Shown here one piece after another: positions 140-64,000 of a stretch of DNA of 64,000 bases (the stretch's first letter is position 1; every line of letters begins with the position of its first letter). A program made the position numbers and the translations under genes. This DNA comes from Helicobacter cappadocius (GTDB taxonomy: Bacteria; Campylobacterota; Campylobacteria; Campylobacterales; Helicobacteraceae). The notes under the pieces were generated by a model that had not been told where the DNA came from, did not search any database, and worked only from the letters and a program-made list of their open reading frames with translations. The stretch is from positions 164,019 to 228,018 of the forward strand of contig NZ_JAUYZK010000002.1 of NCBI RefSeq assembly GCF_030688855.1, read 5' to 3'.

Positions 140-994
140 TTATTTAATTTGAATATAGACAGGTTTTGTTATTTTGGCTGTAATGTCTGCTAGATTTTTA
201 TCTGCTTCAGCTCTAGATTTGTATGGTCCTATCAGGTATTTTGTAACAGTTTCACCATTTAATGTTGAAGTTTGGGTGCGATAGGTATATTTTCTGATCT
301 TATCCATAAAAACTTTGTTAGGTGTTTTATTAAAAACTCCTACTTGTAGATAATGACCAGGTGTTGCATTAGAACCATTTTTGACGATAGGTTTTGGCTT
401 AGTGGGTACAGCTTCTTTTTTTGTATTGATTGGTTTTGTATCTTTTTTTACTACAGGTTTTGTTTGAGCCGGTTTTATTGATTGCGCCTTGGAAGACTCA
501 TTAGTTGTAGATTTTGGTGCTGGTTTCACATTTTCAGTAGTGTGATTGTCTAAAATACTAGATGCTTTATTTTCCTTTTGATTTGTAATAGGTAACATTT
601 CATCGCTAGAATCTTGGGCAGGTGGGCTAAAGTGAGTATCTTCGGCTTGACTCTGGTTAGCTAGTTGCTTTGATTTAATATCTTTAACAATTTTGTCAAA
701 TTTACTATCTTCATCTGACTTTGACATATCATCAATAGACATATTATCAAAATCATCATTCATATCACTAGTATCAGTTGCATCATGTAGAGTATCCATT
801 TTTTGGATGGAGTTATCTGTTGTTGTAGGGGTTTCCTTTGTATCTTGAGTCTTCATTTTCCATGCTACTACCAATAAAATCAAAATAATCACAATTGCGA
901 TGATGATCATCAAGAATAATTTTTTTGTTTTTGATGATTGTGTATTATTGCTATCTCCTAGCAAAATTTCATTTAACTCTTTTTTGTCTTCCAT
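140..994 (-). CDS. SPOR-domain inner membrane protein
   Basis: This 284-residue protein has a short cytoplasmic N-terminus, one transmembrane segment at about residues 27-45 (run of I, V, L), a long low-complexity periplasmic linker rich in K, T, P, S and D, and a C-terminal SPOR domain from about residue 212 (GHYLQVGVF through the final YIQIK). SPOR domains bind denuded peptidoglycan glycan strands, typically at the division septum, so a role in septal wall remodelling is inferred. It is the last gene of the cvpA-lysS-glyA-DUF1882 run, and the same neighbourhood occurs in Campylobacter. The catalytic fold is absent, so it is probably a structural or recruiting factor. Confidence 0.8.
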   Translation of the reverse strand: MEDKKELNEILLGDSNNTQSSKTKKLFLMIIIAIVIILILLVVAWKMKTQDTKETPTTTDNSIQKMDTLHDATDTSDMNDDFDNMSIDDMSKSDEDSKFDKIVKDIKSKQLANQSQAEDTHFSPPAQDSSDEMLPITNQKENKASSILDNHTTENVKPAPKSTTNESSKAQSIKPAQTKPVVKKDTKPINTKKEAVPTKPKPIVKNGSNATPGHYLQVGVFNKTPNKVFMDKIRKYTYRTQTSTLNGETVTKYLIGPYKSRAEADKNLADITAKITKPVYIQIK

Positions 995-5311: not shown

Positions 5312-6664
5312 ATGGTTGTGTCCAAAATAAAGAATATAAAGGAATATTTTTCATATGCATATTTACTTAACCATAAAGATTTGAGAATGCGGATATTTTG
5401 GGCTTTGATCTTTGCAGCAATTTTTTTGCTACCAGTGTATGTTGGAGGTATTTTTATCTATTTGGGGCTTGAAAAAACTGCTGTGATTTTTGAGAGTTTT
5501 TTTGGACTTTTAAGTATTTGGATTTTTTTGCTTGTACCTAGAGTATTGAAGTTTTGGTTTGGATTTTTTGTTGGATTGGGACTGTTTTATTGGACAGGAC
5601 TTAGTTTCCGATTCTCTCCTATGGAGTTTTTGATACCCTTTGTAATGATTTTTGTGAGTATTGTATATGGCGTTGTATTTTATTTTTTACTTTTTTACAA
5701 TTCTTATTTTTGGAGAATATTTACTTTGATGATAGCTAGTTATATTCATCCATTTGGTTTTGATTGGCTAGTGATCGAATCATTTTTTTCTTACAGTATT
5801 TTTGCTGTGGATAAATGGAGTTTTTTTGGATTGATACTCGGAGTGATTGCATTATGGAATTTTCGAAGGTATTATAAACTTATAAGTATTTGCTTTTTGC
5901 TTTTTGCATTGGATTGGGGACATATAAGAGAGGATGGAAAGTGGCAGGATTTAAATATCAATACTTCTGAAATAAATAAGGACAAATTGAATTTGAAAAT
6001 TACCACAACAGATATTCCGCAATCTGAAAAATGGGAAGAAAAAGAAATGAGCTATATAGTTGATAATAATTTCAACTTGATTTATCAGGCAAAGCAAGAT
6101 CATCAAAATGCGGTTGTTCTACCTGAGACGGCTTTTCCTTTTGTGCTTAATAGGAGCTTTCTTATCGATAATCTAAAAATACTCGGAAAAGACATTGTGA
6201 TTATTGCAGGAGGATTGCGTGAGGATGATAATCATAGAATTTATAACAGTATATACATATTTCAAAATGGTAATTTCAGCTATATAGATAAGGTTGTTCT
6301 AGCTCCTTTTGGAGAGAAAATCCCACTTCCTGAATTTTTAGCAAAACCTTTGAGGAAAATGTTTTTTGGAGAGGAGATAGGGCTTAGTGATGCAAAAAAA
6401 CCAGGAAATATTCAAATAGGTAAGGAAGTTTTTCGTGGAGCAATTTGTTATGAAGGAACTTCGGCGATAATGTATAAAGATAAACCCAAATATGTTATTG
6501 TTATTAGTAATAATGCTTGGTTTGTGCCTAGTATTGAACCTATTCTTCAAAGAATGTTGATAAAATACTATGCTAGGCTTTATAAAACAGTAGTTATTCA
6601 TAGTAGCAATCAATCCCCATCCTATGTTCTTTCTAGCTCTGTTTTTGGGGATAAAAATCTTTAA
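5312..6664 (+). CDS. lnt: Apolipoprotein N-acyltransferase
   Basis: Lnt adds the third acyl chain to the N-terminal cysteine of lipoproteins in the inner membrane. The 450-residue protein has about six hydrophobic segments in the first 200 residues, then a nitrilase-like domain. Residues corresponding to the catalytic triad are visible: Glu in VVLPETAFPF, Lys in YIDKVVLAPFGEK, and Cys in GAICYEG. The start ATG 5312 has a strong AGGAGAG seven bases upstream (5298-5304); a later ATG at 5387 lacks one. It is followed 12 bases on by the LolD-like ATPase gene, which suits a lipoprotein-maturation and sorting operon. Confidence 0.93.
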   Translation: MVVSKIKNIKEYFSYAYLLNHKDLRMRIFWALIFAAIFLLPVYVGGIFIYLGLEKTAVIFESFFGLLSIWIFLLVPRVLKFWFGFFVGLGLFYWTGLSFRFSPMEFLIPFVMIFVSIVYGVVFYFLLFYNSYFWRIFTLMIASYIHPFGFDWLVIESFFSYSIFAVDKWSFFGLILGVIALWNFRRYYKLISICFLLFALDWGHIREDGKWQDLNINTSEINKDKLNLKITTTDIPQSEKWEEKEMSYIVDNNFNLIYQAKQDHQNAVVLPETAFPFVLNRSFLIDNLKILGKDIVIIAGGLREDDNHRIYNSIYIFQNGNFSYIDKVVLAPFGEKIPLPEFLAKPLRKMFFGEEIGLSDAKKPGNIQIGKEVFRGAICYEGTSAIMYKDKPKYVIVISNNAWFVPSIEPILQRMLIKYYARLYKTVVIHSSNQSPSYVLSSSVFGDKNL

Positions 6665-58880: not shown

Positions 58881-59981
58881 TTAATCTTCTGGAATATCTT
58901 CCATATCTTTTGGAATATCTTCCATTGTGTTCGCAGCCTCTAGTAGTCGCTTTTTGTCAAAATGTGTGTAAATACGCGTTGTATTTAGATCAGCATGTCC
59001 AAGTGCCTCTTGAACAAGAACTAAATCTTGATGTTTTTGATAGAGTAGGGTAGCAAAAGAATGTCGTAACATATGTGCTCCATTTTTTTCTTTTCTGATT
59101 CCAGCACTCATTAAAATATTTTCAACATTTTTGTAGATATAAGCTTGAGAGAGAGCTGCTCCTTTTTGATTACAAAAAAGTAGATTATTTTCAATATCTT
59201 TGATAGTATTGCGAATACTTAGCCAGTCTTTCAGAAGAATCTCTATATTTTTTTTACGAATCATCACCATACGATATTTATCTCCCTTACCTCTGATACT
59301 TAAAAGATATACATCATTTTCTAAGGTTATGTCTTTTAATCTTAGATTGAGTGCTTCACTCACGCGAATTCCAGTATAGATAATCATCTTGATAATTAAG
59401 CGGTTTCTTGAAGCAATTTTTGGGGACATTTTAAAACATTCTATGCCACGAAAAAATTTTTCTAGCTCTGATTCATTCATATAGGTCGGGAGTTTTTGAC
59501 CAGATTTGCCTCTGGTGCCACCAATGTTTTTAAGTTCTATATTATAAACATATGAAATGCCTGTATTGTCACGATTTTGTTTGTCAATATACCCAAAAAG
59601 ACCTATGAGTGCAATACGATAGTTTTTCTTACTCGCGACGCTTAAGTTGCTCGTATATATGGTTAAAAAATCAATCAGAGATTCTTCGTCTATTTCTTTC
59701 ATTGAGGTAAAAATATTCTTACTTACAAAATGCTCATAAAGTTTAATAACAGGAGATGCGTAAGTTCCAATGCCTATTAATCCAGCATTTCTGACATTTT
59801 TGCATATAGTCTCTAATTCTGAAATATTTTTAATCTTGTCTATTTTAAATAGAGCATCTCGGACGCATTCTTTGTCTTTTACATTGCGATTAGAAAGTGT
59901 GGTTATTTTATGTCTAATAAACCTGGAACACCAAAACAATAAATCGTTTGCAAAACCTTCAGCCTCTAAGGAGTATCTCAT
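58881..59981 (-). CDS. xerH: Tyrosine recombinase XerH
   Basis: XerH (366 residues) is the single chromosome-dimer-resolving recombinase of Campylobacterota, acting at dif near the replication terminus with FtsK. The N-terminal SAM-like domain precedes the catalytic domain with IYTGIRVSEAL (Arg), HMLRHSFATLLYQ (His-x-x-Arg), LGHADLNTTRIYTHF (nucleophilic Tyr in RIYTHF). It is very similar to H. pylori HP0675. The last residues repeat MEDIPKD/MEDIPED. It converges on selD, and a dif-like repeat lies just upstream. Confidence 0.94.
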   Translation of the reverse strand: MRYSLEAEGFANDLLFWCSRFIRHKITTLSNRNVKDKECVRDALFKIDKIKNISELETICKNVRNAGLIGIGTYASPVIKLYEHFVSKNIFTSMKEIDEESLIDFLTIYTSNLSVASKKNYRIALIGLFGYIDKQNRDNTGISYVYNIELKNIGGTRGKSGQKLPTYMNESELEKFFRGIECFKMSPKIASRNRLIIKMIIYTGIRVSEALNLRLKDITLENDVYLLSIRGKGDKYRMVMIRKKNIEILLKDWLSIRNTIKDIENNLLFCNQKGAALSQAYIYKNVENILMSAGIRKEKNGAHMLRHSFATLLYQKHQDLVLVQEALGHADLNTTRIYTHFDKKRLLEAANTMEDIPKDMEDIPED

Positions 59982-60003
59982 TATTTGCCTTTTAAATTAT
60001 ATT

Positions 60004-60033
60004 TAGTTATGAAAACCATAATTTTCAAACTAT
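60004..60033. other. Putative dif site (XerH recombination site)
   Basis: TAGTTATGAAAA (60004-60015), a 6-base spacer CCATAA, and TTTTCAAACTAT (60022-60033) form an imperfect inverted repeat of the right size for a Xer site. It is 23 bases upstream of xerH. In Campylobacterota the difH site lies beside xerH, and the half-site here (AGTTATGAAAA / AGTTTGAAAA) agrees with what I recall of difH. No comparison could be run. Confidence 0.65.
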
Positions 60034-60089
60034 ATGTATTTAACCGCGATACATCTAAGTATCTAAACCATTATATGAAGTTTACTTTT

Positions 60090-60099
60090 TTGTGCTACA
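60090..60099 (+). promoter_or_regulatory. -10 region of the surface-protein gene
   Basis: TGTGCTACACT, an extended -10 (TG-C-TACACT), lies about 45-50 bases before GTG 60144, in the 110-base gap after the dif-like site. A C5 run follows in the leader. Confidence 0.4.
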
Positions 60100-60143
60100 C
60101 TTCCGCCCCCGAAAAGACAACTAAAATTAAACAAGGAAATCCT

Positions 60144-63100
60144 GTGAGAAATATAACGTATAAAACCAAATTAATGCCTTATGATGTACAAAATTCAGTA
60201 ATGCCCCCCCCCCCATCGTCTTTATTTAAAAGTCCTTTTTCAAAGGATTTTGATAAACTTTTAGATTTAAACAATAAAAAAATTCAAAAAAAAACTTTTA
60301 TTCCAATTATTTCTTTAGTTTTATCTAGTTTTTTTCTTTCTTTTAGTGGAGAACTCAGAGCAACTACATTTGGAAATTCTAACTGTACATTTGATTCAGA
60401 ATCTGCTTGTATAGGTGGAAATTACTCTGGAGGCGGACTAACCCTCTCAGGAAGTGGCGACAATAGAACTTTAAAGCTAAGTGGTGGTTTTTGGAGTGGT
60501 TCAAGTTCAATAAAATCTATGAATGTATATAAAAGTATCTTGAATACAGGTTCAGGTAAAGATGATTTTTATTACGCTAGTGGATCAACTGTCAATGCTT
60601 CTCTTAAAGATTCTGTATGGAATGGAGATATTGAGAATTCTGATAACAACTTTGGTGGAGTTTCTAGCTTTAGTTTCAGTGGAAATTATACAGGAGATAG
60701 CAATGCAAGTTTGAAAGGTTATGCTTTTGTGGGGAATGTTAGTAGCCGCCTCGCCAAAATGAAAATGACCTTTAGTGATGGTGCCATATGGAAAGGTGGA
60801 ATAAGAAAAAATTACAAAGACAATAAAGAACAAGGAGCTATGCTTGAAGCTACCTTTGATTCTGGCTCTAAGTGGTTAACCACTTTATCCCCCTCATATG
60901 GAAATATAGATGCCACTTTTACTAACAATTCTTCTATAGTAGGAAGCATAACAAATCGCACAGGAGAGCAGTGGAATTGGAGTTTAGATAATTCTAGCAT
61001 AGATGCTAATATAAAATTAACAGATAATTCTAATTTTATATTTACTCTTAAAAATCAATCAAATATGAAGAAAGATATAGAAATCGATTCTGGATATTTA
61101 AGTATCACTTCAGAGAGCAACTCTACAATAGATGGTAATATAAAAGCAACAGGTGGCACTTCTAATATTGTTTTAAACTCAAGTTCTTTTGCAGGCACTA
61201 TAACCACTTCAGGAGGCAGTATCACACAAGGCAAATTAGGTGGCACACTCACATTGAACGCAGAGTCTAATTCCATTATTGGCAAATCTGCTAATTCTAG
61301 TTCAAATGAGCTATTTGCAAGATGGGGAAGCATTGCTGTTAATTTGGATAATTCTACTATGTACGGAAGGATGACTTGGCGAGATGGAACTCTCAATGCT
61401 ACTTTTAAAAACCATTCCCAATTCATAGGAGATATTGGTGGTGGCATTACACCAAGTACTGTAGATCCTGATTTAAAAAATACTGTTAGTAATGTTACAT
61501 TTGTTGATTCTTCTATGAAGGGAAATATCGTACTTAAAAGCAAATTAGTATCAAAAATCAACCCTACGACCCTAAATAATGAATTAAAGGTTTCGTTTTC
61601 TGGAAATTCCTCCTTTGAAGGTACTGTTAGCACTGATAGCACCGCAGGGACTAATTTAAAAGCAGGAAAAGTTACCTTGGATGCTTCCTTTGATAACACA
61701 ACTCTTAATATAAAATCTATTTCAGCTACTTCTGCTAGTAGCGACTCTACGCTTAATTTTAAAAATATTTCTAATGCCAAAATAGGAAATATCTCTTTTA
61801 ATAATGGCACAATAACAGGTGATTTTTCTTCCTCCTCTTTGGGTGATATTATCAACACTTCTCAAAATTCCTCTTTGTCTTTAAAAAATACGCAAGGACA
61901 AAGCTATGGAAATATTGGAACAAGTTCTCTTGCATATAATGGAAGTTTATTTGCAAATTTTGATTTTACAGATAATGAAAATTCTAAAACTACTATAGGA
62001 AATATTTATCTTGGTTCTAATTCTAAGGCAGATATTTCTTTTAACTTTTCTGTTTCAGATGACAATAATATTATCAACAACAAGCAATCCAATGCAAAAA
62101 TTACTGGAGGAAATGCCTCTTCTTCTTTTAGTTTTTCTAATATTGGCACCTTATCTTTAAAAACAGATATATTAGACAGCATTACTGATAACACAGGGAT
62201 TGTTCTAAGTAATATCAAAGGAAACCTTTCTCTCTCTAAGACTAACGTTATCTTAGCCCCCTCCTCTACTGACACATCAACTCCTGATAACACTTCTAGT
62301 TTTTCTTTAAGTAAGGCTAATACCTCCTTAGCATTAAATGCAACCTTTGGAAATGCTATGTTGGAAGATAGTGCAAATAGGACTCCTAATATTGTTGCTA
62401 ATGATTCAAATATTTTTTATACTCTCACAAATACTGCTTCTAGCACCACAAATGCAGAATATGTAAAAGGGAAATCTTCTAATGGAAATATTGGTTATGT
62501 GGGAGATAATATTGAAAAACATATCAATTTTGTTTTTACAGAAGGTACCTTTGATAATAAAACAAGTGGTTATACAGGAACTATAAGAGGTGGAACAGCA
62601 AATTCTACCTATGGATTTTATAATGCAGGTTCTCTTAATGTTTCTCAAATCACCGATTATTTAGGAACACTCAATCTTTACAATACATTGCTAGTGGATG
62701 TGATTGGAAAGACCATTGAAACCAAAGCAGCAGATGGAACTGTCACTTCTACACCCAAAGATGTTTCTATTTCGTTAGATTATTCTAAAAATTCCAATCC
62801 TTACGGACTAGGGATTGTAGGAATTGGAAAGCATAACATAACTTTTAACTTCACTGACAATAGTAATGCTATTAAGTTTGGAGGTACTCTTCTAGGAGGA
62901 ACCACTGATAAAATAGCAGGAAGCAACAATACTGATAATCAAATCACTATTTACGGTTTAGAGGGAGTTGAAAACAAACAAAGTGATTCTAACAACTCTT
63001 TAGTTGAACTTTTACATAATGCCGGAGTGATCGGAATTAATGCGGTTGATGGTATTAAAAACTCAAATGGAACTACGGATTCTTTTACTGATTCAAAATC

Positions 63101-64000
63101 TCAAGCTCATATTTCAGGTTATAAGGATGTTAAGAGTACTGATAAAAATATTATTACTAAAGGCACTACCTTTAAATTCTTAAATACCACTTTTAACTCT
63201 GATCTCAAAGAAAGTGATTATGCTTTGGATTTGACCTTCACTTCAGCAGAAGTTGCCAATGAAGCTAATATTAAAAATGCCAATAACGATCCAAGTTCCC
63301 CAGTTTTTAACCCTAACACCTCGATTCCTTTAGTGGCTTCTTCTTTTAATGGAGAGTATATTGATTTAGGTAGTAATATTTATGATAATAACCTCTCTTT
63401 TTTGGGACAAGGTTCTATTACTAATAAGTCTAATTTGCTTAATGTTACACTAGGAAGTGGCAAAACGAATATAGTAGCAATAGATACGAATTCTACTTTG
63501 GTTCTAACAAATACCGATAAAGTAGCAACTAATTCAAGTTTAAAACTTTCTAATACTTCTTTGATAGGCGATTGGAATAATGGAGGGAGCTTTATCTTTG
63601 GGGATAATGTTCTTTTAAATGCGGATGGAACATCTTCGCTTGTGAATTCGAAATTCTATGGAAGGCTTTCTAGTAACAACAATTCTGCTTTGAGTGTAAT
63701 CTTAAATCACAATTCACTCCTATCTAGCTCTGATTCAAATGTAAAAAACTCATATCAAGGAAAATTGAAAAGCACTCCCTCAGGAAGCATAACTTCAATT
63801 TTTGATGTTCCTACAATTAATTTTTCTAATACTGATAGCTCCAAAAACAAACTGATTTTAGATAATCCAGGTGGAGTTTTAAAACTCACAGGGCTTAGCA
63901 AGACAGTAAGCCTCTCTAGTGATTCTACCCTCACCTCAAAGAATACAAGCATCATTGGGGATATTTATGGAAATAGTTTTCAAACTAGTGCTAATGGTAA
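60144..64000 (+). CDS. Giant phase-variable surface protein, N-terminal part (autotransporter/Hsr-like)
   Basis: An open frame with no stop runs from GTG 60144 (AAGGA at 60133-60137, 6-base spacing) past the window end: at least 1285 residues. The N-terminus is an extended signal region (charged residues 1-50, then FIPIISLVLSSFFLSFSGELRA), then a passenger dominated by Ser, Thr, Asn and Gly with repetitive beta-strand phrases (NATFKNHSQFIGD, NNSSIVGSI, NSTIDGNI). This suggests a beta-helix autotransporter like the large Helicobacter Hsr/VacA-like proteins; no outer-membrane barrel is seen because the C-terminus is outside. Codons 21-24 are a C11 tract, and with 11 C the frame is open. Confidence 0.85.
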   Translation, partial: MRNITYKTKLMPYDVQNSVMPPPPSSLFKSPFSKDFDKLLDLNNKKIQKKTFIPIISLVLSSFFLSFSGELRATTFGNSNCTFDSESACIGGNYSGGGLTLSGSGDNRTLKLSGGFWSGSSSIKSMNVYKSILNTGSGKDDFYYASGSTVNASLKDSVWNGDIENSDNNFGGVSSFSFSGNYTGDSNASLKGYAFVGNVSSRLAKMKMTFSDGAIWKGGIRKNYKDNKEQGAMLEATFDSGSKWLTTLSPSYGNIDATFTNNSSIVGSITNRTGEQWNWSLDNSSIDANIKLTDNSNFIFTLKNQSNMKKDIEIDSGYLSITSESNSTIDGNIKATGGTSNIVLNSSSFAGTITTSGGSITQGKLGGTLTLNAESNSIIGKSANSSSNELFARWGSIAVNLDNSTMYGRMTWRDGTLNATFKNHSQFIGDIGGGITPSTVDPDLKNTVSNVTFVDSSMKGNIVLKSKLVSKINPTTLNNELKVSFSGNSSFEGTVSTDSTAGTNLKAGKVTLDASFDNTTLNIKSISATSASSDSTLNFKNISNAKIGNISFNNGTITGDFSSSSLGDIINTSQNSSLSLKNTQGQSYGNIGTSSLAYNGSLFANFDFTDNENSKTTIGNIYLGSNSKADISFNFSVSDDNNIINNKQSNAKITGGNASSSFSFSNIGTLSLKTDILDSITDNTGIVLSNIKGNLSLSKTNVILAPSSTDTSTPDNTSSFSLSKANTSLALNATFGNAMLEDSANRTPNIVANDSNIFYTLTNTASSTTNAEYVKGKSSNGNIGYVGDNIEKHINFVFTEGTFDNKTSGYTGTIRGGTANSTYGFYNAGSLNVSQITDYLGTLNLYNTLLVDVIGKTIETKAADGTVTSTPKDVSISLDYSKNSNPYGLGIVGIGKHNITFNFTDNSNAIKFGGTLLGGTTDKIAGSNNTDNQITIYGLEGVENKQSDSNNSLVELLHNAGVIGINAVDGIKNSNGTTDSFTDSKSQAHISGYKDVKSTDKNIITKGTTFKFLNTTFNSDLKESDYALDLTFTSAEVANEANIKNANNDPSSPVFNPNTSIPLVASSFNGEYIDLGSNIYDNNLSFLGQGSITNKSNLLNVTLGSGKTNIVAIDTNSTLVLTNTDKVATNSSLKLSNTSLIGDWNNGGSFIFGDNVLLNADGTSSLVNSKFYGRLSSNNNSALSVILNHNSLLSSSDSNVKNSYQGKLKSTPSGSITSIFDVPTINFSNTDSSKNKLILDNPGGVLKLTGLSKTVSLSSDSTLTSKNTSIIGDIYGNSFQTSANG
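60204..60214 (+). repeat. Poly-C tract (C11), phase-variation switch
   Basis: Eleven consecutive C at 60204-60214 encode four prolines (PPPP) in codons 21-24 of the surface-protein gene. Gain or loss of one C by slipped-strand mispairing shifts the frame. As sequenced the frame is ON. Downstream ATG starts in another frame do not restore the signal peptide, so loss of frame should abolish export. Confidence 0.9.

Follow-up and report, generated by a model that had tools for sequence, protein, structure and literature searches.

The stretch of DNA analyzed here (the window) comprises 64,000 nucleotides of Helicobacter cappadocius (contig NZ_JAUYZK010000002.1, positions 164,019 to 228,018 of the forward strand). 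It ends inside a long gene in which a run of eleven cytosines (the C11 tract) lies ahead of a predicted signal peptide. It is quite probable that slippage of this tract would switch the export of an autotransporter predicted to have about 4,000 residues, with a barrel followed by a SPOR-like tail. In the assembly, contig C12 finishes with the window, so that base 64000 is also the last base of the contig. The genome consists of 1,754,933 bases in 33 contigs; in the genome searches, a dozen short contigs were read as N and lay outside the comparison.

The original prediction placed the tract in codons 21–24, upstream of the signal peptide, and gave the open frame a length of at least 3.85 kb. 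Both points were confirmed: the tract is at 60204–60214 in the frame that starts with GTG at 60144, and this frame has no stop up to 63998 (1285 residues; Table 1). The GTG aligned with the ATG of two paralogues in the same genome, and the spacing of the Shine-Dalgarno-like AAGGA agreed too. The tract was the sole C/G run of at least 9 in the window, and no run of this length appeared in any of 100 dinucleotide shuffles of the window. The predicted signal peptide, KIQKKTFIPIISLVLSSFFLSFSGELRA, is a conserved basic-hydrophobic leader called from the sequence pattern, and it begins about 21 codons 3' of the tract.

When one or two bases were added to or removed from the tract, translation from the GTG gave peptides of 27, 28, 39 or 40 residues, with the stop preceding the signal peptide. 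Between the tract and the predicted signal peptide, the frame contains no ATG, GTG or TTG. Because the alternative frames end short of the signal peptide and a bypass start is missing, slippage would switch export, and the tract would likely work as an on/off switch for a giant surface protein. With the homopolymer near the start of the coding sequence, one frame in three is productive: any single-base slip turns ON into OFF, and from OFF, ON is restored by one of the two single-base slips. The earlier statement that each single-base slip toggles export thus holds for the ON state and for half of the slips from OFF.

A leader profile was built from twelve leaders and searched against 121 genomes of the family. 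It matched 12 genomes, including all seven of the genus (33 matches there); the 114 genomes outside the genus gave five weak matches (E 7e-4 to 9e-3), four of which were set aside as likely due to chance; the fifth, in genome G017, led to a 4098-codon frame discussed below. The genus census covered 25 of the 33 matches. A tract of 9–13 nt was present upstream of the signal peptide at 20 of these 25 loci (6 poly-C, 14 poly-G). At 19 loci it preceded the best profile match by 25–282 nt; at the twentieth the distance exceeded 400 nt, with tract and match sharing a frame. The remaining five loci had no tract, one of them with an upstream sequence of 69 nt only. The signal-peptide frame was open back to the tract in all 20 tract-bearing leaders. 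Starts were assigned by a fixed rule, which called for ATG, GTG or TTG, a Shine-Dalgarno-like word and a frame without stops up to the tract: 11 were in frame, 7 out of frame, and 2 not assignable. With three pairs of identical leader DNA counted once, including the genes on contigs C1 and C3, the numbers were 8, 7 and 2, respectively.

These counts bear on whether the C11 tract is a switch at all. It might simply encode a constant stretch of prolines, with slippage too rare to be of use and the gene permanently on, and all three poly-C giants of this genome are indeed in frame. However, poly-G replaces poly-C in 14 of the 20 tract-bearing leaders, so proline is not kept, and in 7 of the 20 the start is out of frame and the reading frame 3' of the tract unbroken. 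Since poly-C and poly-G exchange across leaders, it seems to be the repeat that is kept and not the residues. Tracts of similar length also vary in Helicobacter canadensis (PMC2823697) and in meningococcal autotransporters (PMC3723659). A fixed proline run is thus improbable.

The out-of-frame copies could alternatively be decaying pseudogenes and not switched-off genes, as has been proposed for capC and capD of Campylobacter, where lineage-linked decay is reported (PMC7168839). At least one gene in a relative, the L137 locus of Helicobacter sp. 13S00477-4, looks interrupted elsewhere. Against decay, the frame is open from the tract through the signal peptide in all seven out-of-frame leaders, and six of these have open frames of 590–1264 codons; the open frame of the other one, 168 codons long, is at a contig end. 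Decay is considered quite unlikely as an explanation, and switched-off genes are the preferred one.

At L137, the leader match and the barrel are about 7.5 kb apart on one strand and the barrel frame starts at 6209; from the sequence, this looks like either an interrupted gene or two genes. At another locus (L167, genome G006), a second run, C14, was seen 98 nt upstream of a 4407-codon frame whose leader has a C13 tract. The nearest named relatives, Helicobacter sp. 13S00482-2, 13S00477-4, 12S02634-8 and 11S02596-1, are described as lizard isolates (PMC5566214), and the Helicobacter that carries the C11 gene is probably lizard-associated.

Within the genome, three giants with this leader were found (C11, C10 and C10 tracts), all in frame. 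The two paralogues, on contigs C1 and C3, have a common block of 443 bp with 97% identity, and their sequences diverge on both sides of it. Over the stretch that runs from about 100 bases upstream of the tract to 200 bases past the tract start, the two copies show no difference. It holds the upstream sequence, start, tract, signal peptide and a Cys pair, and the passengers of the two paralogues differ. This pattern suggests that the leader was duplicated or copied by gene conversion. As a block of about 440 bp is near-identical despite different passengers, switch and leader are likely transferred together from gene to gene.

In the genome, 42 C/G runs of at least 10 were counted; a search for the autotransporter barrel PF03797 gave 12 matches, of which 11 exceeded the cut-off. 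Eight autotransporter-type genes carry a 5' tract, with the start in frame in four and out of frame in four; for the three poly-C giants among them, the barrel would lie past the contig ends. With three giants sharing the leader and eight tract-bearing autotransporter-type genes, the suggestion that the protein is the major surface protein of the strain was not supported. Its proposed selection by immunity likewise found no support. In one autotransporter-type gene on contig C28 (L092:6374-12766, minus strand), a G13 run lies directly 5' of the signal peptide; its barrel was found in the genome barrel search and was absent in the Pfam scan of the whole protein. The barrel of this protein is followed by several hundred residues of Lys-rich tail, which by eye resembles a coiled coil. 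On contig C23 (L032, 41000-60500), seven C/G runs of at least 10 were seen inside about 15 kb.

The passenger of the C11 gene matched no known family. Pfam and NCBIfam scans of the window protein (1285 residues) gave no family above the cut-off, and a sub-threshold Pfam match to DUF1885 (E 0.076) was discounted. A protein search with the window protein returned itself and one 2046-residue relative and no others, and a plasmid search with its first 784 residues gave no match. Residues 366–1274 were modelled mostly as beta strand and loop with few helices (predicted local distance difference test score, pLDDT, 73.8; five sequences). The fold search of the passenger gave nothing at E ≤0.001; many of the weak top matches were beta-helix proteins. 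Of the beta-type repeats proposed earlier, the beta character agrees with the model, but no direct DNA repeat of at least 25 nt was found in 60144–64000.

Because the contig ends inside the gene, we infer its C-terminus and full length, and a C-terminal barrel is predicted for it solely through paralogues and homologues. The proposal of a giant phase-variable surface protein accordingly fares well at its 5' end (predicted signal peptide, tract between start and signal peptide, family members in and out of frame), and the barrel comes by way of relatives. A protein search with the longer paralogue, that on contig C1, led to homologues of 4005 residues. One of these, P0004, was 50% identical to that paralogue over 70% of the query length; its C-terminal part consists of a barrel, then the linker CQGC and then the SPOR-like tail; the barrel was recognized by eye, and a Pfam scan of the full-length protein found no family. 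Neither P0004 nor P0005 had a Pro or Gly run ahead of the signal peptide.

In the same genome, a PF03797 barrel with the tail was read in a 3571-codon frame on the contig named C11. Another PF03797 barrel was present in a 1007-codon frame on contig C14, which has a 77-base overlap with the end of contig C30, where the tail is read. The own-genome barrel also matched NCBIfam TIGR01414 at 119 bits. Among relatives, tract, leader, PF03797 barrel and tail were found together in single frames of 4407 codons (G006, C13 tract; start not assignable by the fixed rule) and 3973 codons (G001, G11 tract). Helicobacter sp. 13S00482-2 (also G001) has a C11 tract, leader, barrel (P0010) and tail in an 1819-codon gene. 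Barrel and tail without a tract were read in frames of 3329 codons (G136) and 3442 codons (G028), both genomes belonging to another genus. In P0004 and the relatives read, the barrel is not at the extreme C-terminus, since the SPOR-like tail comes after it.

The last 77 bases of the window are also the last 77 bases of contig C1, which ends inside the paralogous gene in the same direction. No contig continuing past base 64000 was found among the readable contigs, the 77-base match being the contig C1 end alone. An overlap of exactly 77 bases, in the same orientation, links the contig ends in each of eight pairs; the contig end here marks an assembly break at a repeat. That two contigs end in the same 77 bases speaks for a chimera or misassembly, in which case the giant gene would not be one continuous long frame. 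That reading is very improbable against an open frame of 1285 codons here and 2771 in the paralogue, and against relatives with single frames of 3973 and 4407 codons. The C11 gene is therefore taken as the 5' part of one long frame.

The tail is read as SPOR-like and predicted to bind peptidoglycan. A search with the P0004 tail returned five proteins, all of 2593–4023 residues. When Pfam SPOR was run against ten tails, three matched at E ≤1, one of them at 21.2 bits (cut-off 21) and two more weakly; longer pieces gave 14.5–16.8 bits or no match. The tail model (pLDDT 74.3) had the beta-alpha-beta-beta-alpha-beta order expected for SPOR, and the top Foldseek matches were RlpA SPOR domains (PDB 6i05 and 6i09; E 0.0094, probability 1.00). 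A PDB sequence search with the tail profile gave no match. A CQGC motif was seen just N-terminal to the SPOR-like domain in seven of ten aligned tails.

The tail might instead be another small alpha/beta domain with no peptidoglycan role: the Pfam scores are weak, and the VIA-align Z of the model (6.7) ties with that of a different fold (LarC2, 6.8). This is nevertheless judged unlikely. The tail profile matched 110 of 121 family genomes, and among the matches listed, the frames outside two genera were at most 622 codons long and mostly of SPOR-protein size, such short frames being found in many family genomes. The match in the window, the sole short frame put to Pfam, has Pfam SPOR at 28.2 bits. 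It matched the tail profile at 95.9% probability and is likely related to the tails of the autotransporters. RlpA itself is not known to be an autotransporter; here, the SPOR-like domain would follow an outer-membrane barrel. The order of autotransporter barrel and then SPOR-like domain is the unusual part of the architecture, and among the literature titles listed, none reported the two together.

Among known systems, NalP and MspA of Neisseria meningitidis, compared with the C11 gene by description, belong to other bacteria and are smaller than the giant here. They are likewise autotransporters with a coding poly-C tract, the length of which sets on/off expression, as confirmed by immunoblot (PMC3723659). 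HCAN_0457 of H. canadensis is a VacA-type gene whose homopolymer has on and off states, as proposed here, with 12 to 20 G at the population level; it differs, again by description, in its poly-G tract and its annotation as a vacuolating cytotoxin precursor (PMC2823697). CapC and CapD of Campylobacter are autotransporters with poly-G at conserved positions, the capD tract being within the coding sequence or absent; by description, capC differs in that its active or inactive state is unexplained by tract length (PMC7168839). Hsr of Helicobacter mustelae, also a Helicobacter surface autotransporter, forms a surface ring and undergoes antigenic variation by recombining epitope cassettes (PMC2846917); here, a 443-bp leader block common to two paralogues was seen, and no search aimed at silent cassettes was made. 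The same species has a giant autotransporter of 4,094 residues, HMU08270, whose barrel, as in the relatives here, is not at the extreme C-terminus (PMC2846917). A 4098-codon frame in genome G017, with 4094 residues from the first Met, is probably this protein; it differs in that no leader tract was seen and its Gln-rich tail has no SPOR-like stretch. Phase-variable autotransporters have already been reported in Neisseria, Campylobacter and Helicobacter (PMC3723659, PMC7168839, PMC2823697).

Table 1. Features of the giant gene, its surroundings in the window and its leader paralogues
Feature	Position	Strand	Remarks
C11 tract	60204..60214	+	Codons 21–24; as assembled in frame (ON)
Shine-Dalgarno-like AAGGA	60133..60137	+	Read in the sequence; spacing similar in two paralogues
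Giant autotransporter-type gene, 5' part	60144..63998	+	1285 codons without stop; contig end cuts the gene
Predicted signal peptide	60279..60362	+	About residues 46–73, ends SFSGELRA; alignment with paralogues and genus search; limits and cleavage site by eye
Cys pair C81...C89 near mature N-terminus	60384..60410	+	Two Cys columns nearly invariant in paralogue alignment
Ser/Thr/Asn-rich, beta-rich passenger, incomplete	60363..63998	+	Structure model of residues 366–1274; families below cut-off
77 bases shared with the end of another contig, inside paralogous gene	63924..64000	+	Assembly break
Leader paralogue, C10 tract	contig C1:281907		2771-codon frame reaching contig end
Leader paralogue, C10 tract	contig C3:57494		689-codon frame reaching contig end
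dif-like Xer site	60003..60034	+	13-base arms, 6-base spacer; upstream neighbour of the giant gene, not part of the switch
Xer-type tyrosine recombinase gene	58881-59981	-	Adjoins dif-like site
Protein with predicted membrane segment and C-terminal SPOR domain	140-994	-	Pfam SPOR 28.2 bits

Upstream of the giant gene, the recombinase and its site (58881–60034) are what we take to be XerH and dif. A dif-like site with at most three mismatches was found in all seven genomes of the genus, with the recombinase gene within 1.5 kb in five. A genus-wide linkage of the site and the giant gene was considered and dropped, as in the relatives where xer was seen, the side opposite to it holds other genes. 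Beside xer in genome G004, some 74 bases separate a pair of dif-like sites (L160, L162), and a third was observed on another contig (L161), possibly the trace of an element that uses dif. The guanine-cytosine (GC) skew, mostly positive in the rest of the window, falls to 0 at 60001–64000, which agrees with a terminus close to the dif-like site.

The proposed course of events is as follows. The tract would slip in living cells, and an OFF cell would make just a peptide of 27–40 residues. An ON cell would expose the beta-rich passenger on its outside, and the gene would end as its relatives do, with an outer-membrane autotransporter barrel and then the SPOR-like domain. Located in the periplasm, this tail would hold the protein to peptidoglycan, perhaps at cell-division sites. 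Start, tract, signal peptide and Cys pair would travel between genes as one switch-leader unit. A broader picture seems possible, if a little short of probable: start, C/G tract, signal peptide and Cys pair would form a portable cassette of switch and leader that drives a family of giant autotransporters with a barrel and then SPOR, each a phase-switched surface fibre of about 4,000 residues fastened, on the periplasmic side, to septal peptidoglycan that has just been denuded.

That a homopolymer should switch a surface autotransporter is ordinary in principle; the reused leader cassette, the size of about 4,000 residues and the SPOR-like tail make up an unusual anatomy. Because the same leader, hypermutable run included, recurs in the giants and poly-C and poly-G are exchanged, it can be argued that selection keeps mutability itself. 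The usual insertion signal for the barrel assembly machinery (BAM) is C-terminal in barrels, and a barrel with a large C-terminal extension raises the question of how BAM inserts it. If the order of barrel and then SPOR-like domain is true, it would amount to a peptidoglycan-binding anchor on a surface fibre, and surface display could be coupled to cell division.

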